Both the position numbers and the translations under genes were made by a program. This document shows positions 6,465 through 24,923 of a DNA stretch of 48,004 bases, one piece after another. The stretch's first letter is position 1; each line of letters starts with the position of its first letter. The notes below the pieces were generated by a model. That model was not told where the DNA came from. It saw only the letters and a program-made list of their open reading frames with translations, and searched no databases. Source of the DNA: a virus. The stretch is from positions 1 through 48,004 of the IMG/VR virus record IMGVR_UViG_3300046005_002099. One strand, given 5' to 3'.

Positions 6465-6661
6465 TCTTCACCTCTCGCCGCGTCAATCAGCCGATTTCGC
6501 AATTCGCGTCCTTTAACACCGCTCCATTTACCAACCAACGCTTTGTGAGCATTGCGTCTATCAATACCGTTACGAATACAAAAAATATTCATTGTTGTTC
6601 CTTGCAGCACAAAGCCAGCCCGTACAATCTTTAAATCACTGTGTATTTTGATTGGTTGCAT
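6461..6661 (-). CDS. Small DNA-binding protein at the Cro position
   Basis: 66 residues. TTMNIFCIRNGIDRRNAHKA reads as a helix-turn-helix: a helix, a Gly-Ile turn, then a recognition helix ending in KALVGKW. It is the first gene of the minus-strand early operon and is transcribed divergently from the CI-type repressor, which is Cro's position. It overlaps the O-like gene by 4 bases. The Cro role is inferred from position; an early regulator of another kind is possible. Confidence 0.6.
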   Translation of the reverse strand: MQPIKIHSDLKIVRAGFVLQGTTMNIFCIRNGIDRRNAHKALVGKWSGVKGRELRNRLIDAARGEE

Positions 6662-6676
6662 CTTTTGCCTATTGTG

Positions 6677-6720
6677 TTATGTTTAAGATGTTACGCAATC
6701 CGCGTAATATGTGAACATAA
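6677..6720. promoter_or_regulatory. Divergent operator between the Cro-like gene and the CI repressor
   Basis: A perfect inverted repeat TTACGC-AATCC-GCGTAA (6691-6707) lies inside an outer inverted repeat TTATGTT (6677-6683) / AACATAA (6714-6720) with nearly the same centre. Symmetric 17-bp sites of this sort are typical CI-family operators. The divergent early and repressor promoters should overlap here. No -10/-35 pair stands out clearly. Confidence 0.6.
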
Positions 6721-6761
6721 TAGTTCTCAAAACGCGAAAAGTAAAGCAGGAGATGCTCAAA

Positions 6762-7178
6762 ATGAGTAAAAAAAGTGCAAACGCAGTTATAGACAGAATG
6801 CAAGACGCATTACGCTTGAGTTCTGATAGCCAGCTGTGTAGAGAGTTAAAGATAAGTCGTTCGACATTAGGAACGTGGAGACAAAGAGATTCTGTGCCTT
6901 ATGCACTTTGCGTAAATATCGCAGAGGAAAAAAATATATCCTTAGACTGGCTATTGACGGGCGTGGGTTCAATGTTAAAAACAAAAATGGAGTTAAATAA
7001 TGGAACGAATTTTGATGATGAGGATGTTCGCATTTTGAATATGATTAAAAGATTGCCAGAGCCGCAAAAAAACAAGGAGGTCGCGGATATCGAAGCTTTT
7101 TTACGATCCTTTGACGAAGCTATTTCACATTGGGTAGCGAATAATCAGAACAGCCAAGCTAAACGGCAGGCAGCATGA
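6762..7178 (+). CDS. CI-type phage repressor (short form)
   Basis: 138 residues from the ATG that has CAGGAGA 8 bases upstream; a longer reading from 6711 would run into the operator. Residues 5-70 match the phage CI-repressor HTH domain: AVIDRMQDALRLSSDSQLCR, then LKISRSTLGTWRQRDSVPYA, ending in EKNISLDWLLTGVGSM. The rest is short and acidic and lacks the S24 LexA-type peptidase domain, so RecA-stimulated self-cleavage is unlikely. Induction probably relies on an antirepressor or another route. Confidence 0.85.
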   Translation: MSKKSANAVIDRMQDALRLSSDSQLCRELKISRSTLGTWRQRDSVPYALCVNIAEEKNISLDWLLTGVGSMLKTKMELNNGTNFDDEDVRILNMIKRLPEPQKNKEVADIEAFLRSFDEAISHWVANNQNSQAKRQAA

Positions 7179-7219
7179 TGCCGTCTTTGAAAAACGAAAA
7201 CCCGTCAAATTGGCGGGTT
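7163..7219 (+). terminator. Two hairpins after the repressor, probable terminator
   Basis: Stem ACGGCA/TGCCGT (7163-7184) is followed by CTTT. Then comes stem AACCCG/CGGGTT (7199-7219) followed by CTTCG. Neither has a long T-run, so termination may be partial. They separate the repressor from the cargo operon starting at 7294. The rest of the gap (7220-7293) is very A+T rich and may hold the operon's promoter; TTGAAA at 7229-7234 is a weak -35 candidate. Confidence 0.45.
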
Positions 7220-7293
7220 CTTCGTAAATTGAAATAGAACAATTTATTTAAAAATTTAAACAAAAATAAGCCAATCAACATACGAATGCACAG

Positions 7294-10200
7294 ATGAACA
7301 CAATAAATAATAATTCAACTACCAAATCAGGCATTCGTGATAATCATGACTTTGGAAAAGTCGGTGATTTCTTAAAAGAAAAAATACAACCCAATGCACA
7401 GCTACGTTTTGTATCAGCCTATTTTAGTATTTTTGGATTTGAAGCCCTAAAAGCAGAATTATTACCGATTGATAAGCTGCAATTTCTATTCGGTGAACCG
7501 ACTTTTGTTAAGCAACTAGACGTAGCACAATCTCAGGCGAAAGCATTTCATATTGTAGAACAAGATTTATGGCTCAATAATCGTCTTAATCAAAAAGCAA
7601 TTGCTAAAACGTGTGCGGATTGGATAACAGAAAAGGTCGAAATTCGCTCGCTGATTCAAACAAATTTGCTCCACGGCAAGCTCTACCATATCAACAATAA
7701 CGGTGTTGAATCGGCACTACTTGGTAGCTCAAATTTTACGTTGCACGGTTTGGGCGAAGGAAATTCAAACATCGAGTTGAATTTAGTTGTGGATAGCGAC
7801 CGCGACAGACAGGATTTAAAACGTTGGTTTGATGGCATTTGGAACAACAAAACGTTGGTAAAAGACGTTAAACAAGAGGTTTTAAATTATTTAACCCAGC
7901 TTTATTACAATCACTCACCACAGTTTATTTATTACAAAACGCTTTACCATGTTTTTTACGAAGACTGGCAACGCTATCAAGAGCAACGTGAAGCCACTGA
8001 AAAAAGTTTAAATAAATCGGAAATTTGGAATACCTTGTTTGATTTTCAAAAAGAAGGTGTCACGCACGCGATTACTAAAATTCAAGCCCATAACGGTTGT
8101 ATTTTGGCAGACAGCGTGGGGCTTGGTAAAACCTACGAAGCTCTGGCGGTCATCAAGTATTTCGAGGCAAAACATCACAATGTTTTGGTTTTATGTCCCA
8201 AGAAACTCAGCGAAAACTGGTTACTTTATTCATCACTTTATAAACGCCAATTAAATCCATTAAAAGCAGACAAATTAAATTACACCGTATTAAGCCACAC
8301 GGATTTAAGCCGTGAAAAAGGGATGTCAAACAATGTCGATTTGAGCGATTTTGATTGGAGTCAGTTTGATTTAATTGTGATTGATGAATCGCATAATTTT
8401 CGCAACGATAATAAAAGCAAAAATGGTAAATCACGTTACCAACGGTTGCTTGAAGATGTGATTCAAGCGGGTGAAAAAACGAAAGTTTTATTGTTATCCG
8501 CAACGCCTGTAAATAACGATTTGTCGGATTTGTATAATCAAATTCGTTTCATTAGTGCCGACGATACTCATGCGTTTGCTGACATTGGGATTGTCGATAC
8601 AAAGAAAACACTGCGAGCCGCGCAAAATGCCTTCCATGATGCGGTTAAAAACAAGCGTCAATCGCAACTAGCCCACCATTTAAACGCGGATTTTTTCAAA
8701 TTACTGGACGCGATTACGATTGCCCGTTCACGCAAACACATTGAACGTCACTATCCCAATGTGGCAAAAGAACTGGGTGGCTTTCCTAAACGCACCGCGC
8801 CACAATCGATTTATTACGACATGGACACGCTCGGCGTATTTCCGTCATTTGTCGGCATAGAAAAAGAAATTTCGGCTTATCAATTGTCATTATTCAATCC
8901 GACGAAATACCTGCTCAACGAATACCGTGATTTACCTGAATATCAAAGCAAAGTAAAAAACTTCACTCAAGAAAACCGAGAGCATTATTTAATCGGTATG
9001 ATGAAGGTGAATTTTTTAAAACGCCTTGAAAGTTCCGTTGTGTCATTTGCGGACACGATGGCTCGAACGGTTATTAAGATTGAGGATTTGATTAAAAAAA
9101 TACAGCGATTTGAAGACATCGAAAGTTTGACCGAAAACGACCTTAATGAAGATGACGATTTGAATGATGCACTGGCGGTGGGTAAAAAAATTAAATTCAA
9201 GTTAAAACATTTAAAGCGTGCCGAATGGCTACAGGATTTAGAAAGCGATAAACAACAACTCTCGAAATTGCGTGATGTAGCACAAAACGTAACCGCTCAA
9301 CGTGACGGTAAATTACACGAATTAAAACGGTTGATTACCCATAAAATCACCAATCCAACCATCGATAAGCAAGGCAAATCAATCAAAAAAGTGCTGATTT
9401 TTACCGCGTTTTCTGACACCGCCCAGTATTTGTACAATGCCTTGAAATCCGATTTAACAGAGTTAGGCGTTCATTCTGGTTTAGTGACAGGTTCAAAATG
9501 TGAAGCCACTTTAGGCATGACAAATTTTAATGACGTGTTAATCAATTTTTCGCCCACCGCTAAAAAACGCAGTGGTTTTAAAAATACGCTCACGGACGAA
9601 ATTGACATTTTAATTGCGACAGATTGTATTTCGGAAGGGCAAAATTTGCAGGATTGCGATTGGGTGATTAACTACGATATTCATTGGAATCCCGTGCGAT
9701 TGATTCAACGTTTCGGACGGATTGACCGAATTAATAGCCAAAACAAAGACGTTTCGATGATTAACTTCTGGGCAACGGCTGAACTCGACCAGTATTTGAA
9801 TTTGAAAAATCGGGTTGAAGCACGAATGGCATTAGTCGATATTTCTGCCACGGGTTCGGATAACTTATTGCTCACTGAAGACGATGCCAACGATGAATTA
9901 AATTATCGTGACGAACAGCTAAAACGCATGAAAGATGAAGTGCTGGATTTAGAAGAACTCAATGATGGCGCGACATTAACCGATTTTAATTTTGATGATT
10001 TTCGTGCTGATTTAGGTGGCTATTTGGATTTAGAACGCGATAAATTAGCCAACGCGCCACTCGGTCTTTATGGCATCGTGCCAGAGCAACCCGATGTGAA
10101 TATCTACAAAGGCGTTATTTTTTGTCTGCAACAAAAGGTTTATCAGCAAGAAAAGGGGCAGCAAGTAAATCCGCTTACGCCGTTTTTTCTGATTTATATT

Positions 10201-10515
10201 CAAGACGATGGCAAAGTTAGGCGCAACTTTGTTGAAGCTAAACACACACTCGAAGTTTTCAAAATGTTGTGCATCGGTAAAGACCAACCTTATGAAGCCT
10301 TGTGCCAATTATTTGATGACCAAACGGGAGATGGTAGTGATATGGCGCATTATTATGACTTGGTGGCAAAATCGGTCGATGCAATTAGCGAAGCCTTCCA
10401 AGAAAAAGAAATTATAAAGTTAGCAACAGGACGTGGCGCGTTATTGCCAATCGTTTCAGAACAAATCACAAATCCAACCGATTTTACGTTGGTAACATGG
10501 CTCGTAATTAGTTAA
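7294..10515 (+). CDS. PLD-nuclease / SNF2-family helicase, defence system helicase
   Basis: 1073 residues; the translocase component of a four-gene defence-like operon. The N-terminal 190 residues form a phospholipase-D-type domain with one HKD-like motif: H127-x-K129 in LLHGKLYH, followed by GSSNF at 144-148. One motif per chain suggests dimerisation. A superfamily-2 helicase core follows: Walker A GLGKT at 276-280, DESH at 364-367, SATP at 402-405, and motif VI QRFGRIDR at 805-812. A helical charged insertion spans about 560-700. The family links PLD-helicases to foreign-DNA processing. The weak ribosome-binding site and A+T-rich composition suggest recent transfer as cargo. Confidence 0.85.
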   Translation: MNTINNNSTTKSGIRDNHDFGKVGDFLKEKIQPNAQLRFVSAYFSIFGFEALKAELLPIDKLQFLFGEPTFVKQLDVAQSQAKAFHIVEQDLWLNNRLNQKAIAKTCADWITEKVEIRSLIQTNLLHGKLYHINNNGVESALLGSSNFTLHGLGEGNSNIELNLVVDSDRDRQDLKRWFDGIWNNKTLVKDVKQEVLNYLTQLYYNHSPQFIYYKTLYHVFYEDWQRYQEQREATEKSLNKSEIWNTLFDFQKEGVTHAITKIQAHNGCILADSVGLGKTYEALAVIKYFEAKHHNVLVLCPKKLSENWLLYSSLYKRQLNPLKADKLNYTVLSHTDLSREKGMSNNVDLSDFDWSQFDLIVIDESHNFRNDNKSKNGKSRYQRLLEDVIQAGEKTKVLLLSATPVNNDLSDLYNQIRFISADDTHAFADIGIVDTKKTLRAAQNAFHDAVKNKRQSQLAHHLNADFFKLLDAITIARSRKHIERHYPNVAKELGGFPKRTAPQSIYYDMDTLGVFPSFVGIEKEISAYQLSLFNPTKYLLNEYRDLPEYQSKVKNFTQENREHYLIGMMKVNFLKRLESSVVSFADTMARTVIKIEDLIKKIQRFEDIESLTENDLNEDDDLNDALAVGKKIKFKLKHLKRAEWLQDLESDKQQLSKLRDVAQNVTAQRDGKLHELKRLITHKITNPTIDKQGKSIKKVLIFTAFSDTAQYLYNALKSDLTELGVHSGLVTGSKCEATLGMTNFNDVLINFSPTAKKRSGFKNTLTDEIDILIATDCISEGQNLQDCDWVINYDIHWNPVRLIQRFGRIDRINSQNKDVSMINFWATAELDQYLNLKNRVEARMALVDISATGSDNLLLTEDDANDELNYRDEQLKRMKDEVLDLEELNDGATLTDFNFDDFRADLGGYLDLERDKLANAPLGLYGIVPEQPDVNIYKGVIFCLQQKVYQQEKGQQVNPLTPFFLIYIQDDGKVRRNFVEAKHTLEVFKMLCIGKDQPYEALCQLFDDQTGDGSDMAHYYDLVAKSVDAISEAFQEKEIIKLATGRGALLPIVSEQITNPTDFTLVTWLVIS

Positions 10516-10531
10516 TAAAAAGGATTTAGTA

Positions 10532-13500
10532 ATGACTGACAAAAACAAACTTCAAACGCTCATCAACCAATTTTCTGGTGGTGATTTAAGAACGAATGCC
10601 CTCGCATTATTCAAAGAACTGGGCTATCAAAGTCCGCGTACTTTTGACAAACCCGTTGCTGAAATTTTGCGCGGCTTCGACCATGAAAAAGCGTTGTGTT
10701 CTGAGTGGATTAACGCGCCATTTTTGTTTCAATTAGCCGAAGATAATTTAAGTCATGTACAGTCATTACTCACGGATGTTGACGGAACTATTATCCACTC
10801 ATATTTATTTGTAGCTATCGAGTTAAAGAATAAGCATGGCAAGGATTACTCCCGTTCTGATTTAGTCAAGATTACTCGAGAACTCAATAAAAGCCCATTA
10901 AATGGACAATCACCACCTGTTTTAATTTTATTCAAACATAATGGAAATCTTACGTTATCAGTTATTCATCGCCGCTTGAATAAAAAAGATAGGGATAAAG
11001 ATGTTTTAGAAAAAGTTACCTTACTTAAAGATATTCATATCAACAAACCTCACTCTGCTCATGTAGCTATTTTGGAAGAGTTAGCATTTGATAATTTGAA
11101 TTTGAAAGCCGATGCCAATTTTGTTGATTTACACAACGCTTGGCAAGCCATTTTAGATACCAAAATGCTTAACAAACAGTTCTATAAAGAATTGTCGCAA
11201 TGGTATTTCTGGGCAATAGATGAAGTTTATTTTCCTGATGCCGAACAAATCGAGTCAGTAAAGGGAAGCGTTTTTGCAGATTCAAAAAAAGTCCGAGAAC
11301 ATAACGCAAAAAATCTTATTCGACTGCTAACCCGTTTGTTATTCGTTTGGTTTATCAAAGAAAAAAATCTAATTCCAGAAAATTTATTTAATGAAGACTG
11401 GATTAAATCGCAATTAAACGATTTCAAACCTCAAATCAGTGACACAGTTAAAGCGAATACAAGTCATTATTACCGCGCTATTTTGCAAAATTTGTTTTTT
11501 GCATCACTTAATCGGGTAGTTAAAGAAAGAAAATTTTGTTCTCCCAATAATCAAAAAGATACAACTTTAATGCACTACCAATCGTATTTTAACGATTCGG
11601 AAGTGTTTTTAGATTTAGTTAAAAACATTGTTCCGTTTATGAATGGTGGCTTGTTTGATTGCTTGGATAAGTACGTTCTTGATGCTGAAGGAAATCCATG
11701 CGGTGATGCAATTGTTTGTGAAGACAGTTTTTCAGATGACAGTAATAATCAGCTCGACGTTCCAGACTATATTTTCTTTGGTTCATATAAAAACGTCGAT
11801 TTAAGTGATGATCTTGGTGCAAAAAACAAAGCTGTTGAGGTTAGAGGCTTAATCGATATTTTAAAAAGCTACAAATTTACCATTACCGAAAACACACCCG
11901 TTGAAGAAGATATTGCACTCGACCCAGAGTTGCTTGGACAAGTATTTGAAAATTTACTTGCCAGTTACACACCTGAAACCAAAACCACAGCGCGTAAGCA
12001 AACAGGTAGCTTTTATACGCCCCGCGAAATTGTCGATTACATGGTGGATGAATCGTTAAAGGCTTATTTCAAATCAAAACTGGAAAGTTTGAATGCTAGT
12101 AATTTACTTGGCGACCATGATTTAGTTGGAATTTCACGCAAAACTGATTTATTTGAAAGATTAGAGGATTTGTTTAGTTATACAAAGGCTACGCCTGAAT
12201 TTTCAGCAACTGAAAAAACTACCTTAATTAAAGCGATTGATACTTGCCAAATCCTTGACCCTGCTTGTGGTTCGGGAGCATTTCCAATGGGTGTTTTACA
12301 CAAATTGGTTTTTGTTCTGACAAAAATCGACCCACACAACATTTTATGGAAAAAACGGCAAATCGACCGTGTTCAAGATTTCAAATTACAAAAGCGTATT
12401 ATTGAAACTTTCACCGACAATGAAGTCAATTATTCTCGAAAACTTTATCTTATTGAAAATTGTATTTATGGCGTTGATATTCAACCAATTGCTATTCAAA
12501 TTAGCAAACTTCGGTTTTTCATTTCGTTGATTGTTGACCAACGAATTGATAGAGATAAACCAGATAAAAATTTCGGTGTCTTACCACTTCCAAATTTAGA
12601 AACAAAATTCGTTGCCGCAAATACACTAATCGGTATTGAAAATTCCAAATCACAAATTGATTTGTTTCATAACAAAGACGTTGAAATTTTAAAGAAAGAC
12701 TTAAAAGAAATTAGACATAAACTGTTCAGTGCGAGAAATCCAAGTAAAAAACAAAAGTATCGAGATGAGGACAAAGAATTACGGAAAGAAATTGTCACCT
12801 TGCTAGAGCAACACGGCGGCGAAAATAACACGGTACAACAACTGTTGAGTTGGAATTCTTACGACCAAAATGCAAGTGCAAGTTTTTTTGATGTTGAGTG
12901 GATGTTTGGTGAAAGTGGTTTCGATATTGTCATCGGAAACCCGCCTTACATAAAAGAATACACCAATAAAGCTGCTTTTGATGGTTTAAGAGATTCACCT
13001 TATTACCAAGGAAAAATGGATTTATGGTATTTGTTCGTTTGCAAAAATCTTGAAATTACCAAAAAGAACACTGGCATTTTGACTTTTATTGCAACCAATA
13101 ACTGGACGACAAATACGGGTGCTTCCAAAATGAGAAGTAAAGTTTTGAAAGAAACCACGATTGAAAAACTGTTAGATTTTGGTAGTTACATGATTTTTGA
13201 AAGTGCTGACATTCAAACGTCCGTGATGATGTTTAGAAATGACAACAGTAACGACAATTACACTTTCGATTTTAGACGTTTAGTCGGTGATAAATTAACG
13301 TTTAATGATGCACTGGATTTGATAACAAAAACCAAATCACCTAAAAATGAATTCTTATCTGCCAAAATTTCAAAAAATGATTTAGATGGTAAATCACTCA
13401 CTTTCAGCAATAACGCGCTTGATAATGTTTTGTCCAAAATTCAAAAGAAAAGCAATCTTCATCTAACAAAGAATGAAGTAGCAAACGGAATTCACCCGCA

Positions 13501-14455
13501 TTACGACTACGTTAGCAAAGCTACACAAAGCGTATTAGGAGATAATTTTGAGGTTGGTCAGGGAATTTTTGTTTTAAGTGAAAAAGAAAGAGTAGATTTA
13601 AATTTAAATGGGAAAGAACTTGAGTTGATAAAACCATATTTTACAACTGAGCAATTGCGTAAATGGTGTGGCAAAAAAGAAAACAAAGAATGGATAATTT
13701 ACACGGGTTCAACATTTAAAGATGCGGCGAATATCGAACCTTATCCGAATATCAAAAAACATCTCGACCAATTTCAAAGCGTAATTACGTCAGACAATAA
13801 ACCTTATGGATTGCACAGAGCGCGTAATGAGTATTTTTTTCAAGGTGAAAAAATTATTGCGTTGAGAAAGTGTGTTGGTGAGCCGATTTTTACTTACACG
13901 GATTTTGATTGTTATGTGTCAGCGACTTTTTATGTCATCAAATCAGAACGAATTGATTTGAAGTATTTAACGGCAGTTTTGAATTCTAAACTCGTGGCGT
14001 TTTGGCTCAAAAACAAAGGCAAAATGCAGGGGCAGAATTATCAACTCGACAAAGAACCGCTGTTAGATATTCCCGTGTATAAATCGGACGAAAATCAACA
14101 ACAATTGGTAAGCCGATTGGTTGATTATATTTTGTTTATCAAGCAACAGCCTTTTTATACCTCAGCAGATTTAGATTTTGCCGAAGAACGTTTGATGTCG
14201 AATTTCTTTGAAAATTTAATTGATGCGCTGGTTTATGAGTTGTATTTCCCAGAGGAATTACACGAAGCCAAAAAACAGTTTATGAGTTTGGTTGTTCAAG
14301 AGAATTTGCCTGATTTAGATGTCATTGAAGGCGATAAGGTTAGCGCGTTGAAACAAATTGTTCGACGCTTAACTGACAAAAACCATCCGCTTTATAACAA
14401 TCTGTTTTTCTTAGATAGCGTGCCTGTGGTCAGAATTATTGAAGGTAAAGCGTGA
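10532..14455 (+). CDS. Eco57I-like adenine-N6 DNA methyltransferase, defence system methylase
   Basis: 1307 residues. The N-terminal 200 residues form a nuclease-like or accessory domain seen in large methylases of this class (LFVAIELKNKHGKDYSRSDL, later DVLEKVTLLKDI). I see no convincing complete PD-(D/E)XK set there. The methylase core has motif I DPACGSGAF at 576-584 and motif IV NPPY at 803-806, so it should make N6-methyladenine. The C-terminal part has a TaqI-like target-recognition region (LNSKLVAFWLKNKG, then QNYQLDKEPLLDIPV). AAGGAT precedes the ATG, 16 bases after the helicase stop. It most likely marks self DNA for the operon. Confidence 0.85.
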   Translation: MTDKNKLQTLINQFSGGDLRTNALALFKELGYQSPRTFDKPVAEILRGFDHEKALCSEWINAPFLFQLAEDNLSHVQSLLTDVDGTIIHSYLFVAIELKNKHGKDYSRSDLVKITRELNKSPLNGQSPPVLILFKHNGNLTLSVIHRRLNKKDRDKDVLEKVTLLKDIHINKPHSAHVAILEELAFDNLNLKADANFVDLHNAWQAILDTKMLNKQFYKELSQWYFWAIDEVYFPDAEQIESVKGSVFADSKKVREHNAKNLIRLLTRLLFVWFIKEKNLIPENLFNEDWIKSQLNDFKPQISDTVKANTSHYYRAILQNLFFASLNRVVKERKFCSPNNQKDTTLMHYQSYFNDSEVFLDLVKNIVPFMNGGLFDCLDKYVLDAEGNPCGDAIVCEDSFSDDSNNQLDVPDYIFFGSYKNVDLSDDLGAKNKAVEVRGLIDILKSYKFTITENTPVEEDIALDPELLGQVFENLLASYTPETKTTARKQTGSFYTPREIVDYMVDESLKAYFKSKLESLNASNLLGDHDLVGISRKTDLFERLEDLFSYTKATPEFSATEKTTLIKAIDTCQILDPACGSGAFPMGVLHKLVFVLTKIDPHNILWKKRQIDRVQDFKLQKRIIETFTDNEVNYSRKLYLIENCIYGVDIQPIAIQISKLRFFISLIVDQRIDRDKPDKNFGVLPLPNLETKFVAANTLIGIENSKSQIDLFHNKDVEILKKDLKEIRHKLFSARNPSKKQKYRDEDKELRKEIVTLLEQHGGENNTVQQLLSWNSYDQNASASFFDVEWMFGESGFDIVIGNPPYIKEYTNKAAFDGLRDSPYYQGKMDLWYLFVCKNLEITKKNTGILTFIATNNWTTNTGASKMRSKVLKETTIEKLLDFGSYMIFESADIQTSVMMFRNDNSNDNYTFDFRRLVGDKLTFNDALDLITKTKSPKNEFLSAKISKNDLDGKSLTFSNNALDNVLSKIQKKSNLHLTKNEVANGIHPHYDYVSKATQSVLGDNFEVGQGIFVLSEKERVDLNLNGKELELIKPYFTTEQLRKWCGKKENKEWIIYTGSTFKDAANIEPYPNIKKHLDQFQSVITSDNKPYGLHRARNEYFFQGEKIIALRKCVGEPIFTYTDFDCYVSATFYVIKSERIDLKYLTAVLNSKLVAFWLKNKGKMQGQNYQLDKEPLLDIPVYKSDENQQQLVSRLVDYILFIKQQPFYTSADLDFAEERLMSNFFENLIDALVYELYFPEELHEAKKQFMSLVVQENLPDLDVIEGDKVSALKQIVRRLTDKNHPLYNNLFFLDSVPVVRIIEGKA

Positions 14456-15819
14456 TGCGAATTAAAAAAATTGAAATCCAAAATTTCAGAGCGTTTTACG
14501 GTAATTTTGAAATTGAACTCGGTGGTAAAAATCTGCTGCTTTATGGTGAAAATGGCAGTGGTAAATCGTCGCTGTTTTACGCGCTGAAACTGTTTTTAGA
14601 ATCGGCGAATGCCAAAACTGAATTTTCAGAACATCGGAACATTTTTGTTAAAGATGATGACGATGGTTTCGTTAAATTAACCATTGGCAAAAATGCTTAT
14701 GAATGGTTGCCAGCGAAATTTCCAGACGCGCCGATTATATTGGATGCCAATAAAACCAAAGGCTTTTTAGATTATAAAAGTTTGTTGGAAACACATTTTT
14801 TACACCGCAAGCAAGAAGAAAAAAGCGTTAATTTGTTTCATTTGTTAGTTGAAAATTTGCTCGTTGATTATACGGAATCCAGTTCGGGCAGAACGATTGG
14901 TGAAATTTGGCAAAGTGTACAGAAAAAATCAAAAGCCAAAAAGAACACAAATACTTACAAAAAAGAATATCCAGAAGAACTGCATTTCATGAATGACGTA
15001 CTTCAAAAAGCATTGGCTAATTTGACGGATAAAACCAATGAGTTACTGGCTTTCTTTGATTATCAAATCATTTGTAATTTCACATTTAGCGTTGTGATGC
15101 AGATATTGTGGCTCGATATAAAGTTTTTTAATCGTTCAATTCCAACCCACCATGATTTTTTAAATGAAGCGCGATTATCGGCAATTGCATTATCAATTTA
15201 TTTTGCGTCATTGTTAGAACAACCAAAAAGTGATTTACGAATTTTAGCGTTAGACGATGTTTTAATTGGCTTGGATATGGCAAATCGTTTGCCTGTGATT
15301 GATATTTTGGAACAACATTTTTCTGAGCATCAAATTTTCTTTATCACGCATGACAAACTGTGGTTTGACATGATGAAAATGCGAACAGAAGCCAACAAAG
15401 CATGGAAATGGAAGTACGCCGAGTTTTATTGCCCGAATGATGTGAAATCGCCTATTTTGCCGATTGATTATGAAAATGATTTAGAGCGAGCAAACAAATA
15501 CTTGTTGAATGGTGATTATAAAGCGGCGGCGGTTTATGCGCGGACAGCTTTTGAAATTACGTTAAAGAATTTTTGTGACAAGAAAAAATTAAGTGTTCGA
15601 TATTGCAAAGATGCGAAAAAATTACAAAGTGAAGATTTTTGGCAAGCGGTGAAAGCATTTGGACTCGACCCAGAACTGGTGAGTAATGTTGAACTTTATC
15701 GGGCTGTAGTGCTTAATCCATTAAGCCATTCACGCATCGTTGATATTACAAAAAATGAAGTCGGTAAGGCTATCGCGGTAATTGAACAATTGGAAATGGC
15801 TTTGGAAGGTTTGAAATAA
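14455..15819 (+). CDS. RecF/ABC-type ATPase with HEPN-like C-terminal domain, defence system ATPase
   Basis: 454 residues from the ATG that overlaps the methylase stop (TGATG), with GAAGGT upstream; a GTG three bases earlier is possible. Walker A GENGSGKSS is at 31-39, a signature-like ARLSAIALSI near 240, Walker B LALDD ending at 268, and the H-loop His at 300 in FFITHDKLW. The ATPase halves are joined by only a short coiled segment (about 150-210), so this is not a long SMC. Residues about 345-450 are helical with R416 and H425 (RAVVLNPLSHSR), resembling HEPN or DUF4145-type tails of defence ATPases. It may sense or signal infection. Confidence 0.8.
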   Translation: MRIKKIEIQNFRAFYGNFEIELGGKNLLLYGENGSGKSSLFYALKLFLESANAKTEFSEHRNIFVKDDDDGFVKLTIGKNAYEWLPAKFPDAPIILDANKTKGFLDYKSLLETHFLHRKQEEKSVNLFHLLVENLLVDYTESSSGRTIGEIWQSVQKKSKAKKNTNTYKKEYPEELHFMNDVLQKALANLTDKTNELLAFFDYQIICNFTFSVVMQILWLDIKFFNRSIPTHHDFLNEARLSAIALSIYFASLLEQPKSDLRILALDDVLIGLDMANRLPVIDILEQHFSEHQIFFITHDKLWFDMMKMRTEANKAWKWKYAEFYCPNDVKSPILPIDYENDLERANKYLLNGDYKAAAVYARTAFEITLKNFCDKKKLSVRYCKDAKKLQSEDFWQAVKAFGLDPELVSNVELYRAVVLNPLSHSRIVDITKNEVGKAIAVIEQLEMALEGLK

Positions 15820-17075
15820 TGTCTAAAAATGAAAATATCTTTTGTAACCTCACTTCAAAACGCATCGCAGAATTGATAAGCGAGGCAGAAACAACTGTTT
15901 GCTACTCTGCGCCAAGCATCCAACTTGAACCCGCACAGGCTCTCGTAGAAGCATCAAAAAAACTCGGCGTTGAAATGCTAACTGTATCGATTGATTTTGA
16001 CGAACGAACATTGCGTTTGGGATATGGAAGTTTGGAGGCAATCAATTTACTTCGTGAAGCGGGGATGATTGTTAATCATGCCGAGGGAATACGCCAAGCC
16101 CTGCTAATTGTTGATGATGACGGTTATAGCTACACGCCAACTCCGTTGTATTTAGAAGCTGAAAATACAACGGCAATTAACGCATTGCGATTATCACCAG
16201 AACAAACAAAAGAAGCTCTCACTAGATTATCGCCAGCCGCTAAAGCCATTGCAGTCGCTCAAGCTACCACGATTGAAGAAAAAGAGCGTATATCAAATTT
16301 ACCCGTCGAAATCACTTCAATCGAAGTGGATGTTGAAAGATTCAAGCGTGTTGATGAAAGTTTAAAGCTAGCACCTCCTGTAAAGTTTGATATTGCCAGA
16401 CAGGTTCGAGTATTTGAATCTTATTTTCAGTATGTTGAACTTAGCCTAACTGGTGTTGCAATACAGCGGCATAAACTGGCAATACCAATAAGCATTCAAA
16501 AATTAGGTGCTGGCAAAGACTTAGAGGGAAGATTAAAGACTACTTTCGATTTAATTGAAAAAAATGACGCATTATCCTCAAAAATATTGGAGGGGGAGTT
16601 TAACGAAATTCGTGATAATTTTGCAAAGTCTCTGGGTAAAAATCATGGACGGGTTTTATCGAAAGCCGCAAAACCACTTTTTGAAAAACGTATTGAAGAA
16701 TTTCAAATAAAGCTGAAGAACCATCAGACAAAAGTAGAAGAAGAACTTCAAATGTTGCTTAATAATTCACGAAAGCAAGTAATTGATTATTACAAACCAA
16801 CGGTTATGAAAAACCCTCCCGATTCTCTGAGAGGACAATTACTTTCAGAAGCACTTTCGGAAGAAGATGTTGAATGTTGGCTAGATAGCGAGTTGGAGCG
16901 GGTTTTCCCAAAATCAGAATCTATTATCAAAGAAATGAAAATTGAAAAACGTTACAAAGACGTTACTTTTGAAACGCTAAATCAGTCCGATTTTTTAATT
17001 GCAATAAAAGAAAAATTTCCAAAAATGGAATGGGATAAAACTTATCGTGATTTTATAGCAGCAGGTGAAAAATAA
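15819..17075 (+). CDS. Unrecognised fourth defence-operon protein with degenerate PLD-like N-terminus
   Basis: 418 residues. The start overlaps the ATPase stop (TAATG) and has GGAAGG upstream, so it is translated as part of the operon. Residues about 1-115 follow the strand-helix pattern of a PLD half-domain (SEAETTVCYSAPSIQLEPAQ, then EAINLLREAGMIVNHAEGIR, ALLIVDDDG). The His-x-Lys of the active site is replaced by Gly-Ile-Arg-Gln, so catalysis is unlikely. Residues about 120-290 are helical with few features. Residues 290-345 are a charged coiled coil. I do not recognise the full-length family. It could be a target-recognition, adaptor or regulatory subunit for the helicase and methylase. 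Confidence 0.7.
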   Translation: MSKNENIFCNLTSKRIAELISEAETTVCYSAPSIQLEPAQALVEASKKLGVEMLTVSIDFDERTLRLGYGSLEAINLLREAGMIVNHAEGIRQALLIVDDDGYSYTPTPLYLEAENTTAINALRLSPEQTKEALTRLSPAAKAIAVAQATTIEEKERISNLPVEITSIEVDVERFKRVDESLKLAPPVKFDIARQVRVFESYFQYVELSLTGVAIQRHKLAIPISIQKLGAGKDLEGRLKTTFDLIEKNDALSSKILEGEFNEIRDNFAKSLGKNHGRVLSKAAKPLFEKRIEEFQIKLKNHQTKVEEELQMLLNNSRKQVIDYYKPTVMKNPPDSLRGQLLSEALSEEDVECWLDSELERVFPKSESIIKEMKIEKRYKDVTFETLNQSDFLIAIKEKFPKMEWDKTYRDFIAAGEK

Positions 17076-17106
17076 AATTTCAACAATCCTTTATAAATTC
17101 TATGAA

Positions 17107-17135
17107 GTGTGGGTCTTTAAATTTCAAACCCACAC
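17107..17135 (+). terminator. Hairpin after the defence operon, weak terminator candidate
   Basis: Stem GTGTGGGT/ACCCACAC with a 13-base A+T-rich loop lies 31 bases after the operon's last stop. No T-run follows, so it may work poorly or need Rho. It separates the cargo operon from the late activator gene. Confidence 0.4.
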
Positions 17136-17206
17136 GCTAATCAGTTAATGGAATGAAAGCGCGACGTATAATTTCTTAATCTCAACTCACTAAATCCTAA
17201 ATCGTC

Positions 17207-17242: not shown

Positions 17243-17548
17243 ATGTCGAATTTCTTATCTGAAATGCGCGAGTTTTTGGCGCGTGAACTCAAAGCCTGTG
17301 CAATTGAATCGGAAGTCGCGGACAGTATAAGCACGAGGGTCACATGGGAATTCCGTAAAAATTACGGCGGAATACCGTTGTATCTGCCAAAATCAAAAGA
17401 ACTCACCTCTCGTAATGATGAAATCTGGTCAAAATTTAATGGGAGAAATCATGTTGCGCTTTGTCGAGAATACGACTTGAGCTACCAACAAATCTGCAAA
17501 ATCATCGGTCTTCAACGTAAAAAACGTCAAGGCGATTTGTTTCGATAA
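17243..17548 (+). CDS. Mor-family transcription activator (late/middle operon regulator)
   Basis: 101 residues, the normal length for the Mor/C family of phage Mu. The hallmark Gly-Gly turn before the beta-strand is at 42-43 (YGGIPLYLPKSKEL). The C-terminal helix-turn-helix spans about 60-90: IWSKFNGRNHVALCREYDLS, then YQQICKII. Family members bind dyad sites as dimers and recruit RNA polymerase to middle or late promoters. GGAGG precedes the start. The repeated element directly downstream (17557-17595) and at 30026-30064 is the obvious target candidate. Confidence 0.85.
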   Translation: MSNFLSEMREFLARELKACAIESEVADSISTRVTWEFRKNYGGIPLYLPKSKELTSRNDEIWSKFNGRNHVALCREYDLSYQQICKIIGLQRKKRQGDLFR

Positions 17549-17992: not shown

Positions 17993-18345
17993 GCCAATTA
18001 TCCGCGCATTTTAATCGTGCTGAATTCACCTGCCATTGTGGCTGTGGCGCGTCTAACATCAACATGGCGTTGGTCGAATTACTCGAGCAGATACGAGTTG
18101 CTGTTGATGAACCGATTCATGTTTTAAGCGGTGTTCGCTGTGAACACCATAATCACCACGTTGGTGGCGCACGCCACAGCCAGCACGTTTTAGGTAATGC
18201 GGCAGATATTTTTGTTGATGGATTGACACCGAAATTGCTACATAAATTTATCGAACAAAAATTCGATGTTGGCGGCATGGGACTTTATCCAACATTTGTT
18301 CACGTTGATGTGAGAAAAGAAAAAGCACGCTGGACGGGCAAATGA
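17989..18345 (+). CDS. Endolysin, peptidase M15A type
   Basis: 118 residues. It should cleave peptide bonds in peptidoglycan. Zinc-ligand motifs of the M15A family are visible: SGVRCEHHNHHVGGARHSQH, then HVLGNAADIFV (H-x-x-G-x-A-x-D) and FVHVDVR near the C-terminus. The N-terminus has a Cys pair and no signal peptide, so it depends on the adjacent holin. Overlaps of 4 bases with both neighbours. No spanin pair is visible nearby. Confidence 0.9.
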   Translation: MSQLSAHFNRAEFTCHCGCGASNINMALVELLEQIRVAVDEPIHVLSGVRCEHHNHHVGGARHSQHVLGNAADIFVDGLTPKLLHKFIEQKFDVGGMGLYPTFVHVDVRKEKARWTGK

Positions 18346-19628
18346 ACAAATTTGACGCACAAATTATTCGGGTTGCTATCGAAAGTGTGATTCCTTACGC
18401 CAACAACACCAAAAAACACCCGCCAGCTCAGATTGATAAATTAGCATCAATGATTGCGGAATACGGTCACGACGTGCCGATTGTGGTGGATGCTGACAAC
18501 GTGGTCATTAAAGGTCACGGACGGTTGCTTGCCTGTAAAAAACTGGGTATGGAAACCATCCCCGTCATCGTTCGCACCGACCTCACACCTGCACAAGCCA
18601 AAGCCGCTCGCATCGCCGACAATAAAGTCAGCGAATCTGAATGGGACATGGATTTACTGCGTCTTGAATTGACGGAACTCGACGAATTAGGTTTCGACCT
18701 AGATTTGACAGGCTTTGATGATTTCGATTTGACGATTGATGACGAATCTACAATTGACGACGATGCCGACCTTGATGCCGTGCCAGAACCACCACTCGTA
18801 CCGATTACGAAACTGGGCGACGTTTGGTTGTGTGGCAATCATCGGGTGATGTGCGGCGACAGCACCAGCATTGATGCGGTGGACACGCTAATGGGTGGCG
18901 ATAAAGCTGACATGGTTTTTACTGACCCACCGTACAACGTAAAAATCGTGGGGCTTGGAAGCGGCACGTCAAAAGCGGGCATCGGCAAAATTCACGGTGA
19001 ATTCAAAATGGCTTCGGGAGAAATGACCAAAGACGAATTCACTGACTTTTTACGCGCTGCGTTCACTTGCTTGATTGCATCATCAAAAGACGGCTCAATT
19101 CACTACATCTGCATGGATTGGCGGCACATTCAAGAACTCACTGCCGCTGGCGAAATTTACACCGAACTCAAAAATCTCTGCGTTTGGAATAAAAACAACG
19201 GCGGCATGGGAACGTTTTACCGCAGCAAACACGAGCTGATTTTTGCCTATAAAAACGGCACAGAAACCCACACCAACAACTTTCAACTGGGGCAAACGGG
19301 ACGCTATCGCACCAATGTTTGGGATTATCCAATGGCAACTCAAACGGGTGAAAACGCAGAATCCAAAATGCACCCCACCGTAAAACCCACGCAACTGGTG
19401 GTCGATGCCATTCTGGATTGTTCAAACAATGGCGAAACAATTTTAGATTTATTCGGAGGCAGCGGCACGACCATGATTGCCTGCGAAAAAACTAACCGTA
19501 TCGCTCGATTGATGGAACTCGACGAGAAATACTGCGACGTGATTGTTCGCCGCTGGCAGGAATTAACGGGCAAAGAAGCCAATTTGGAAAGCAACGGGGC
19601 GTTATTCAACGTGCTAGGCGATGGCTAA
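18342..19628 (+). CDS. ParB-domain / DNA N6-adenine methyltransferase fusion
   Basis: 428 residues. Residues 1-100 form a ParB/sulfiredoxin-like domain (HPPAQIDKLASMIAEYGH, then VIKGHGRLLACKKLGMETIP). An acidic linker of Asp repeats follows (about 115-150). The methylase has motif IV DPPY near 196 and motif I LDLFGGSGTTMIACEKT near 370, a beta-class order. DPPY favours adenine N6. Such fusions are common beside small terminases, where they may protect or mark DNA before packaging. No restriction partner is adjacent. Confidence 0.88.
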   Translation: MNKFDAQIIRVAIESVIPYANNTKKHPPAQIDKLASMIAEYGHDVPIVVDADNVVIKGHGRLLACKKLGMETIPVIVRTDLTPAQAKAARIADNKVSESEWDMDLLRLELTELDELGFDLDLTGFDDFDLTIDDESTIDDDADLDAVPEPPLVPITKLGDVWLCGNHRVMCGDSTSIDAVDTLMGGDKADMVFTDPPYNVKIVGLGSGTSKAGIGKIHGEFKMASGEMTKDEFTDFLRAAFTCLIASSKDGSIHYICMDWRHIQELTAAGEIYTELKNLCVWNKNNGGMGTFYRSKHELIFAYKNGTETHTNNFQLGQTGRYRTNVWDYPMATQTGENAESKMHPTVKPTQLVVDAILDCSNNGETILDLFGGSGTTMIACEKTNRIARLMELDEKYCDVIVRRWQELTGKEANLESNGALFNVLGDG

Positions 19629-23435: not shown

Positions 23436-24923
23436 ATGTCAGCACCGAAAGCACTTTATAACGAACAAGCGATTGATTATTTACTCAACAATCTGCTGCA
23501 AATGGCGGACACCGACGAGACACTAAAAAAGCTGGGCATTCATCGCAAAGAACTCCGCGCCCTTGAATCCGATGACGAAATTTATGCCGCGATTGAAACT
23601 CGCCGCGAAGCCTTAATTGCTACGCCGTGGCGTTTAGAGTCGGGTCTGGTTCGACAAAATAACTTTCTATGGCGTGAAATTGAACGAGTGATTACCGCCA
23701 CATTACGCGGGGCATTTAACGCGGTTTTATACGGCTACAGCGTGCAGGAGGTGATTTATCAGCAATTACCTGATGGCAGAATTGGCTTAAAAGAAGTTAG
23801 CGAAAAACCGTTTGAATGGTTTGAACCTAAAAGTAATGGCGATTTGATTTACCGTTCGATGCTCGACCCAATGGGAACAGCGGTTGATACGCAATACAAA
23901 TTCCTACTCACGATTCGCAACGAAACTTACCGCCAACCTTACGGCGAAGCGTTGTTGTCGCGGCTTTATTGGGCATGGTTATTTCGCGTGAACGGATGGA
24001 AATTCTGGGCGAAGAATCTTGAACGCGCTGGCATTCCGTTTTTAAAAGGGACTGCGCCTGATATGCCTTTGCCCGACGGCACGCCTGCCGTTGATAGATT
24101 ATCGACGGTGTTAAATGCGGCGGTGCAAAACGCCACGCTGGCATTGCCCGATGGTTGGACAGCAGAATTTATGAGCGTGCAGCAAAACGGCGCGACCTTT
24201 GAACAATTTGAAACCGCAATTTTAAAAAGAATTCAAAAGGTCATTCTTGGTCAAACACTCACGAGCGACGTAGGTTCAAGCGGTTCATTTGCAGCAGCGA
24301 AAGTGCATCAATCGGTACTCGAGGACAGAAAACGGGCAGACATTCGGTTGGTTTCAAAAAACGTGCAGACGTTGGTCAATGCACTGCACACGTTAAACGG
24401 ATTTACGGGCGAGCCACCGACGTTTGTCATGGAAGACAACACGGGCTTGGAGGTTGACCGTTCCGAGCGTGATGCAAGACTGGTAAGCGCGGGGATATTG
24501 AAACTCACGCCTGATTATTTGTTGCGTGTTTATGATTACGAAGACGGTGATTTTGAGATTCCACCAGCCGTTTTGCCAAACTCCAATCCGCCAATTGGCG
24601 GAACGAAATCTACGAACTTTGCCGCATCCAACCAGCCGATTAAATTCACATCAGAGCGTGACGTATTTTTGGGAACAATTGTTCCCAAATTCACACCCAA
24701 CCAACAAGAAATTGAAACGCTCGCCGACGACGTGTTGGCAAATCTAAAAAGCCCGATTCCCGAAGGTTCAATTTTTAACGCCATCAAAGCGGCGAGCGAT
24801 TATGAAGACCTCGCCAATCGTCTAGCGGTACTTTTTGACGAAACCGACACCGCCAAATTTCGCCAAGTTTTAGAGCGAGCCACGTTTGCTGCTGATTGCA
24901 TTGGTTTCGCTCATGCCAGATAG
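23436..24923 (+). CDS. Portal protein (Mu gp29-like, DUF935)
   Basis: 495 residues. The start has GGAGG upstream; a longer reading overlapping the terminase is rejected. It forms the dodecameric DNA portal. DUF935 hallmarks: LESDDEIYAAIETRREALIA, then VLYGYSVQEVIY, RQPYGEALLSRLYWAWLFRV, and ILGQTLTSDVGSSGS. The C-terminal region after 370 is variable and carries copy 2 of the 16-bp palindrome (SNPPIGGT). Its end overlaps the head-morphogenesis gene by 11 bases. Confidence 0.92.
   Translation: MSAPKALYNEQAIDYLLNNLLQMADTDETLKKLGIHRKELRALESDDEIYAAIETRREALIATPWRLESGLVRQNNFLWREIERVITATLRGAFNAVLYGYSVQEVIYQQLPDGRIGLKEVSEKPFEWFEPKSNGDLIYRSMLDPMGTAVDTQYKFLLTIRNETYRQPYGEALLSRLYWAWLFRVNGWKFWAKNLERAGIPFLKGTAPDMPLPDGTPAVDRLSTVLNAAVQNATLALPDGWTAEFMSVQQNGATFEQFETAILKRIQKVILGQTLTSDVGSSGSFAAAKVHQSVLEDRKRADIRLVSKNVQTLVNALHTLNGFTGEPPTFVMEDNTGLEVDRSERDARLVSAGILKLTPDYLLRVYDYEDGDFEIPPAVLPNSNPPIGGTKSTNFAASNQPIKFTSERDVFLGTIVPKFTPNQQEIETLADDVLANLKSPIPEGSIFNAIKAASDYEDLANRLAVLFDETDTAKFRQVLERATFAADCIGFAHAR
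24587..24602. repeat. 16-bp perfect palindrome, copy 2 of 3
   Basis: Identical to the copies at 2179-2194 and 29710-29725, including the flanking CAA and A (20 identical bases, 24584-24603). It falls in the variable C-terminal linker of the portal gene and encodes Pro-Pro-Ile-Gly-Gly. Confidence 0.9.

Follow-up and report, generated by a model that had tools for sequence, protein, structure and literature searches.

The window examined here is the whole 48,004-nucleotide stretch of IMG/VR virus record IMGVR_UViG_3300046005_002099, and the subject is a four-gene operon of its plus strand (7294-17075), carried inside a prophage. The operon encodes: (i) gene 1 (7294-10515), a PLD nuclease joined to an SNF2 helicase (1073 amino acids (aa); PLDc_2, SNF2-rel_dom and Helicase_C domains), (ii) gene 2 (10532-14455), an Eco57I-type N6-adenine methylase with a TaqI_C recognition domain (1307 aa, assigned by Pfam), (iii) gene 3 (14455-15819), a RecF/AAA_15-type ABC ATPase (454 aa, assigned by Pfam and motifs), and (iv) gene 4 (15819-17075), a 418-aa protein in which a PLD fold lacking the HKD motif is followed by a coiled-coil half (structural model and alignments). 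We consider it fairly probable that the block is a restriction-type defence held as swappable prophage cargo, accompanied by a separately mobile accessory gene. A methylase, a motor and a nuclease are encoded together, with motifs intact apart from the D of HKD (N), and genes 1 to 3 look like an ATP-dependent restriction-modification (RM)-type defence. As the original prediction described, all four open reading frames (ORFs) share one strand and are tightly packed: 16 bases separate genes 1 and 2, the TGA stop of gene 2 (14453-14455) overlaps the ATG of gene 3 at 14455 (TGATG), and the TAA stop of gene 3 (15817-15819) overlaps the ATG of gene 4 at 15819 (TAATG). For gene 3 the ATG at 14455 is taken as the start, the GTG at 14452 in the ORF list being only the mechanical first start.

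The defence-like content that was predicted is borne out by Pfam and PADLOC, which recover the PLD-SNF2, Eco57I methylase and ABC ATPase domains. Gene 1 has a PLD domain (residues 70-183), an SNF2 motor (251-424) and a Helicase_C domain (693-814) by Pfam, and its GLGKT, DESH and QRFGR helicase motifs are present in the alignment. Its best PADLOC profile is C3a139 'HKD+Snf2' (3e-122, compared with 6e-26 for HmaA), and it belongs to PHROG 26785 (8e-225), a family annotated as function unknown. Gene 2 combines methylase (Eco57I/N6, 643-889; motifs DPACGSGAF and NPPY kept) and TaqI_C recognition domain (1096-1182) in one chain and matches PADLOC REase_MTase_IIG (7e-59); a stretch near its N-terminus is weakly DUF4391-like (16 bits, under the Pfam cut-off). 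For a classic IIG nuclease in gene 2, sequence comparison offers a candidate N-terminal PD-(D/E)XK motif, which reads ELK, ELT, ELK, ELN and DLH in five homologues, the lysine of ELK not being conserved. Gene 3 matches AAA_15, AAA_23 and SMC_N in Pfam, has the Walker A motif GENGSGKSS, and shares with three homologues (4/4) the Walker A, LNEAxL, LDD(V/M)L, T(H/Y)D and a C-terminal NPx(S/T)H. The NPx(S/T)H lies in a helical-looking C-terminal region (15700-15819 in the window; also in loci L067, L068 and L013), which, set against HEPN motifs, may be a HEPN-like remnant.

The part played by gene 1 is suggested by where its PLD active site has been kept. In the window the site is represented by H127-G-K129 (7672-7680, plus strand) of the PLD motif HGKLY...GSSNF, as located by alignments. 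A search of viral contigs with gene 1 gives 50 loci, and the alignment holds 57 homologues, of which nine have HxK. These include all five homologues partnered by an Eco57I methylase (window, L029, L067, L068 and L069), the PLD-SNF2 proteins of DUF499 type in L005 and L006, and both homologues with a type ISP methylase (L114 and L115, where the gene after gene 1 encodes a methylase carrying a type ISP recognition domain). HxK is missing from the other 48 (47/47 rows in which the region is present, plus L099, which is without the region); several of these loci are near copies of one another. A type III-like Mod or Res accompanies 41 of the 48, two have DUF4391 only and five have neither, and an Eco57I-type gene 2 occurs in none. 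When the PLD region is excluded from the tree, the 48 rows fall on one side of a branch (support 0.83), as do the five Eco57I-partnered rows (support 0.98). Because the HxK-less rows lie on one side of a branch, a single loss is called for rather than 47. Thus, the PLD active site was probably lost once, in the branch that works with type III Mod and Res, and probably retained where the methylase brings no such nuclease. From this pattern of retention we read gene 1 as the predicted cutter of the window's set.

Genes 1, 2 and 3 lie next to one another in L067, and in L068 they recur with a 277-aa ORF between genes 1 and 2; gene 4 is absent from both. The L069 contig ends inside gene 2. In most other viral loci of gene 1, DUF4391 and type III Mod come next, and Res is often present as well. 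The same arrangement is seen in six plasmid loci (L007-L012), whose homologues show 39-41% identity to gene 1 across 95-99% of the gene 1 length. The plasmid sets resemble the window in the PLD-SNF2 gene (C3a139) and through the weak DUF4391 likeness of gene 2, but differ in their type III Mod, the full Res of five out of six and their degenerate PLD; the window set instead combines an Eco57I/TaqI_C methylase with an ABC ATPase and keeps HxK intact. The three-gene core is predicted to be a new version of the ATP-dependent RM-like systems, though a 2020 classification of ABC ATPases may already describe it. In NgoAVII/CglI-like and SauUSI ATP-dependent restriction enzymes, a PLD nuclease is coupled to an SF2 motor as in gene 1, while the modification partners are other than those of the window, whose gene 4 also lacks HKD. 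As a separate observation, gene 1 has matches in 535 of 72,556 plasmid records when every degree of similarity is counted, 97 of them over at least 80% of its length. The loci L007-L012 and L070-L113 represent a widespread type III-like set (dead-PLD PLD-SNF2, DUF4391 and Mod, often Res) of plasmids and viral contigs, and DUF4391 is mentioned in a single paper of the literature searched.

The original prediction pointed to a catalogued helicase-methylase-ATPase system, HMA. A helicase, a methylase and an ATPase are all there, gene 1 is an SNF2 helicase of the kind HMA admits (HmaA or HKD-SNF2), and gene 4 homologues accompany true DUF499 systems (L005 and L017). The partners that define HMA, in the sections of the source that treat them, are a DUF1156 methylase and a DUF499 ATPase (PMC12839542). 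DUF1156 is not found in the full Pfam list of gene 2 (seven families at E 0.1: Eco57I, N6_Mtase, TaqI_C and weaker ones) nor DUF499 in that of gene 3 (12 families at E 0.1); the DUF499 reference of L005 is not among the best matches listed for gene 3 copies, and gene 1 is far nearer to C3a139 than to HmaA. An HMA system, centred on DUF499 and related to BREX, is contradicted by these results and is very improbable here. The Type 2 DUF499 BREX-related systems, with their HKD-SNF2 helicase, are described in the same sections as combining PLD-SNF2, adenine methylase and ATPase (PMC12839542); the ATPase and methylase of the window belong to other families. Gene 4 homologues stand beside a PLD-SNF2 helicase in L005 and L006, and also occur in L017. 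Genes 1 to 4 have no match to BrxC, PglZ, BrxA, BrxB or BrxL in the Pfam lists or the PADLOC matches listed, the only BREX-like matches being those of gene 2 to PglX-type methylases.

The restriction-type set occupies a slot whose edges are drawn from DNA similarity and so are independent of ORF calls. Against the sibling prophage L063, blastn similarity ends at 7138, at the C-terminal end of the repressor, and restarts at 17204, just before Mor, leaving a cargo slot (7139-17203) without DNA similarity; similarity to L062, which was compared from the cargo onward, restarts at 17174 with 92% identity. The neighbours are a CI-type phage repressor on the left (6711-7178, plus strand; PF07022, Phage_CI_repr, E 3.4e-20) and a Mor-type activator on the right (17243-17548, plus strand; PF08765, E 6.5e-20), in agreement with the repressor and late activator named at the outset, and the predicted A+T-richness of the block is seen as 33-39% GC at 7-17 kb compared with ~44-51% in most of the window. 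The same slot holds a type I RM set in L062 (1-10000; HsdM_N plus N6_Mtase, Methylase_S, and HSDR_N plus SWI2_SNF2) and HsdR, an AAA_15 ATPase and a GmrSD_N protein in L065 (1-8100), both siblings coming from the same metagenome series. A single ORF fills it in L063 (144 aa, without a Pfam match) and in L064 (124 aa). Because siblings carry different cargo in that place, the interval between repressor and Mor is taken as a swap site, and this prophage family seems to exchange restriction systems there. Edges and alternative cargoes alike uphold the earlier view of a cargo inside a prophage, and the slot would add to the cases in which entire restriction systems are exchanged among siblings at a single position. 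A swap site filled with restriction-like genes in a prophage would also suit a selfish set that holds the prophage in its host by punishing loss, with defence as a side effect. A methylase plus a nuclease cannot by themselves separate this from defence, and we rate the selfish alternative as improbable. One further contig (L061/L002) is the same prophage as the window, with 100% identity across the 16.5 kb compared.

Defence as swappable cargo would account for genes 1 to 3; gene 4 has a wider range. A profile scan of 84,980 species genomes finds 47 gene 4 loci, sorted by hand into 24 linked, 12 unlinked and 11 cut or fragmentary, where linked means that a restriction or BREX-type gene is adjacent or one to two genes away. 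Thus, 24 of the 36 informative loci stand beside a restriction or BREX-type system, and these systems are of about ten kinds. Type I RM is the most frequent (n=11: L014, L018, L022, L025-L028, L036, L040, L044 and L047, with HsdR on the other strand in L028), followed by BREX (n=4: L033, L054, L056 and L057) and other Eco57I loci (n=2: L045 and L050). Single cases are PLD-SNF2/Eco57I (L029), DUF499 (L017), a type ISP fragment (L030), GmrSD (L015), a DrmD/DISARM-like locus (L016), ABC plus Mrr_N (L031), and UvrD plus ABC plus HNH (L041). In a plasmid BREX-1 operon of Acinetobacter towneri, the gene 4 homologue (51% identity over 99% of the length) is set between pglX and pglZ with 1- and 4-base overlaps. 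In viral contigs L005 and L006, gene 4 comes after a PLD-SNF2 helicase; upstream lie DUF1156- and DUF499-type genes (L005) or a DUF1156-type piece (L006). BrxT of pEFER was considered as a gene 4 counterpart and rejected; in pEFER, BrxT lies ahead of the BREX core instead of between pglX and pglZ.

How closely gene 4 is tied to these neighbours can be gauged from its junctions. The junction was compared in 27 linked loci, comprising the window, L003, L005, L006 and 23 out of the 24 genomic ones. The gene 4 start overlaps the stop of the gene before it, by 1 or 4 bases, in ten of them and lies within 30 bases in six more, counts that the choice of start affects. Such overlaps, and the position inside BREX-1 between pglX and pglZ at two loci (one clade), are hard to square with gene 4 as a passenger that defence islands collect and that has no functional tie to its neighbours. 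Chance proximity is also low: with 147 N6_Mtase stretches in 107.6 Mb (22 gene 4 genomes), a random point falls less than 10 kb from an N6 methylase only ~3% of the time, a yardstick and not a matched control. The passenger view is favoured by gene 4 moving alone, by a YgjP or RadC gene between gene 4 and the restriction gene in some linked loci, and by the 12 of 36 informative loci without a linked system; we regard it as unlikely. Two further sightings belong to the distribution of the gene: the genome of L046 (G387) has two more nearly full-length gene 4-like places of ~270 bits each, and a Caballeronia plasmid (L004, 13989-17256) has a distant gene 4 at 1.7 kb from a short McrC annotation, with transposase genes nearby, possibly the decayed remains of an McrBC locus.

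DNA comparisons and trees set gene 4 apart from the conserved core, as a part that moves by itself. The original prediction of an extra component agrees with the occurrence of genes 1 to 3 without gene 4 in L067 and L068. Its suggestion that the four genes were transferred as a unit finds no support here, the full set being seen only in the window and one near-identical contig; nor are the genes kept together elsewhere, as genes 1 to 3 are found without gene 4 and gene 4 with many other systems. DNA matches of gene 4 comprise 244 pairs among 31 loci, and 233 of the 244 are confined to within 60 bases of the gene. Many of these pairs are distant and, therefore, the close ones are most telling: between L005 (DUF499) and L030 (type ISP fragment) the identity is 91.6% across 1278 bases, which is essentially gene 4, with a weaker 219-base 3' stretch, and between L025 and L026, both type I, it is 83.7% across gene 4 alone. 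The alignment of gene 4 (A3) has 39 rows (window, L005, L006 and 36 genomic loci); it omits 11 of the 47 genomic loci (L020, L024, L046, L049-L052, L055 and L058-L060) for frame breaks, inserts or fragments, and also L003 and L004, which are added back for the 41-row tree. In this tree, the window gene 4 pairs with the type I-linked L014 (100/99) and the Eco57I/PLD-SNF2 copy of L029 lies elsewhere. The 11 type I rows need eight changes, seven of them forced by well-supported branches, and shuffles reach eight in 57/500. A 3' flank of ~70-300 bases past the gene 4 stop is shared within L005/L006/L030/L032 and within L018/L023/L024/L036, and so the moving unit may extend a little beyond the gene. 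An integron cassette was considered and rejected, no attC core motifs being found in nine 3' flanks.

Profile searches leave gene 4 without a family. A search of all four proteins against defence-system profiles was proposed at the outset; genes 1 and 2 have PADLOC matches, and for the window's gene 4 no family is found in PADLOC (E 0.01), Pfam (E 0.1), NCBIfam (0.01) or PHROGs (0.01); in a PADLOC scan of 39 gene 4 members, at most four share any weak match (best E 0.0008). No published name for gene 4 was found in a search of open-licence literature, which makes this weak evidence of absence, and the sections and main-text term searches of the HMA source yield no mention of it (PMC12839542). 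The AlphaFold2 model (pLDDT 82.9, pTM 0.48) places a PLD fold at residues 1-179 (15819-16355, plus strand; model and alignment), with similarity to Nuc (Z 11.4, rmsd 3.5, 139 aligned), NucT (Z 11.3, rmsd 2.9, 132 aligned), TrmBL2 (Z 10.4, rmsd 3.2, 127 aligned), SauUSI (Z 10.1, rmsd 3.4, 145 aligned), BfiI (Z 8.8) and NgoAVII (Z 8.5); the best Foldseek E is only 3e-3. Five residues, R66, G68, G70 (R66-x-G-x-G70), R92 and D99, are invariant in 39/39 rows. In the model R92 and D99 appear to fit the H and D positions of HxKxxxxD, a motif found in none of the 39 rows within the first 200 residues, and an active PLD nuclease is rejected for gene 4 with HKD missing in 39/39. Gene 4 thus has a PLD fold in common with the Nuc/NucT nucleases and the TrmB/TrmBL2 regulators, but differs from both in R92/D99 and in its coiled-coil half, which is modeled with one 50-residue helix (282-331). 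An HKD-less PLD fold is able to bind a ligand, as in TrmB. Sequence searches of the PDB give best E values of 0.98 and 0.027; the second hit, an apolipoprotein, is read as a coiled-coil resemblance. A viral structure library gives no gene 4 match at E 0.001.

The embedding of gene 4 in restriction loci recalls PrrC, which, in the parts of the source that concern it, is found in a type IC locus and switched on by T4 Stp (PMC12707154). PrrC-type accessories are, in the same parts, likewise embedded in a restriction locus (PMC12707154), and gene 4 might by analogy be a guard that waits in the restriction complex and harms the cell once a phage inhibits restriction. Its placement within restriction operons and the co-production implied by overlapping start and stop codons would fit such a guard. 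Unlike PrrC, which sits in a type IC locus, gene 4 joins about ten kinds of system that have no shared component; in addition, no toxin, nuclease or RNase domain and no library family is found for it, and HxKxxxxD is seen in 0/39. A guard of this type is thus not the likely answer. Another possibility is an anti-restriction or restriction-alleviating protein that protects the DNA of its carrier, both in operons and as solo copies on mobile elements. Solo copies at or under ~4 kb from replication or transfer genes point this way (L039, D5-type primase; L043, YagK/Rep-like; L046, TraG-like), against which gene 4 is often embedded and overlapped in restriction operons. Its charge (median -6, range -14 to +8 over 39 rows) is unremarkable and only mildly acidic, so that there is no obvious DNA mimic, and an acidic DNA mimic was rejected. 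Anti-restriction is, on this evidence, as doubtful as the guard; guard, brake and passenger are rivals of similar weight.

For the preferred reading, a restriction-type defence with a mobile accessory, a division of labor can be proposed. Gene 2 would mark self DNA by methylating adenines wherever its TaqI_C-like domain recognises its site. The SNF2 motor of gene 1 would move along unmarked DNA and its PLD domain would cut, with the RecF-like ABC ATPase of gene 3 loading or gating this action on DNA ends or structures. The former active-site pocket of gene 4 may hold a ligand that all its host systems handle as substrate or product, be it DNA ends, oligonucleotides or a nucleotide, and the protein may tune or back up the response; this mechanism is speculative. 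No protein is known to be common to the systems in which gene 4 occurs: GmrSD lacks a methylase, type I RM lacks PglZ and BREX-1 lacks PLD-SNF2. Since they share only their action on DNA, a role at a shared substrate or product is favored over one docking partner, and the target of such a portable accessory would be foreign or broken DNA. Gene 4 might even be an uncatalogued, restriction-agnostic accessory, a dead-PLD protein that joins type I RM, BREX, DUF499, DISARM-like, type ISP, GmrSD and PLD-SNF2/Eco57I systems, senses a shared product (for example DNA ends or oligonucleotides) and acts as a second line or a brake. If it is functional in all these settings, it would be a module shared at a finer level than that of named defence systems, and would point to a step common to type I RM, BREX and related systems despite their having no shared component. 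Debate continues over the way in which BREX and its relatives stop phages and over how a restriction system is kept from harming its own cell; a small gene that can be deleted from several host systems would make part of these debates testable.

Several observations weigh against this reading. The defence role is a prediction from sequence, and the D position of the gene 1 HKD motif is N in the window. The gene order 1-2-3-4 is seen in the window only, the near-identical contig L002/L061 having genes 2 (cut) to 4, and L029 has genes 1, 2 and 4 with no gene 3 match and ~1 kb between genes 2 and 4. The gene 4 contexts were sorted by hand, and the 12 unlinked loci (L020, L024, L032, L034, L035, L037, L039, L042, L043, L046, L048 and L053) have no linked restriction gene, although L037 and L039 have an N6 methylase within ~6 kb all the same. 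Gene 4 is rare, in 3/369 genomes (the known centre genome, a partial match and one at E 2e-4), 2/72,556 plasmids and 0/50,697 phages; a second viral scan with a wider gene 4 profile returns the same three contigs, and in E. coli no gene 4 is found with the Acinetobacter copy as DNA query. Residues 184-418 folded alone (pLDDT 78.0) give no confident structural match: the best Foldseek hit has E 0.36, and the highest Z is 4.6 (98 residues, rmsd 3.9). This is no proof of a new fold. The two BREX-1 copies of gene 4 form one clade (100/96). Lastly, the 13 context labels need 20 changes on the tree compared with a shuffled mean of 26.9, a value as low being reached in 0/200. The contexts are by this measure partly inherited and not freely shuffled, so gene 4 appears to stay with one kind of system for a time and then jump.

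At the boundaries of the operon, promoter and terminator scans of 6600-7400 are at chance level, and a signal for the expression in lysogeny that was originally proposed is not visible in the sequence. An 8-bp perfect hairpin 3' of gene 4 (GTGTGGGT / ACCCACAC; 17107-17135, plus strand), picked out by eye, is a possible operon end. Downstream of the holin, the window has a second methylase gene (18342-19628; ParB-like plus DNA methyltransferase, PHROG 498, 1e-129), which is kept in 5/5 siblings (L062-L066). Further on, two 210-base stretches (25728-25937 and 26019-26228), both in a 721-aa ORF (24886-27051), are ~73% alike.

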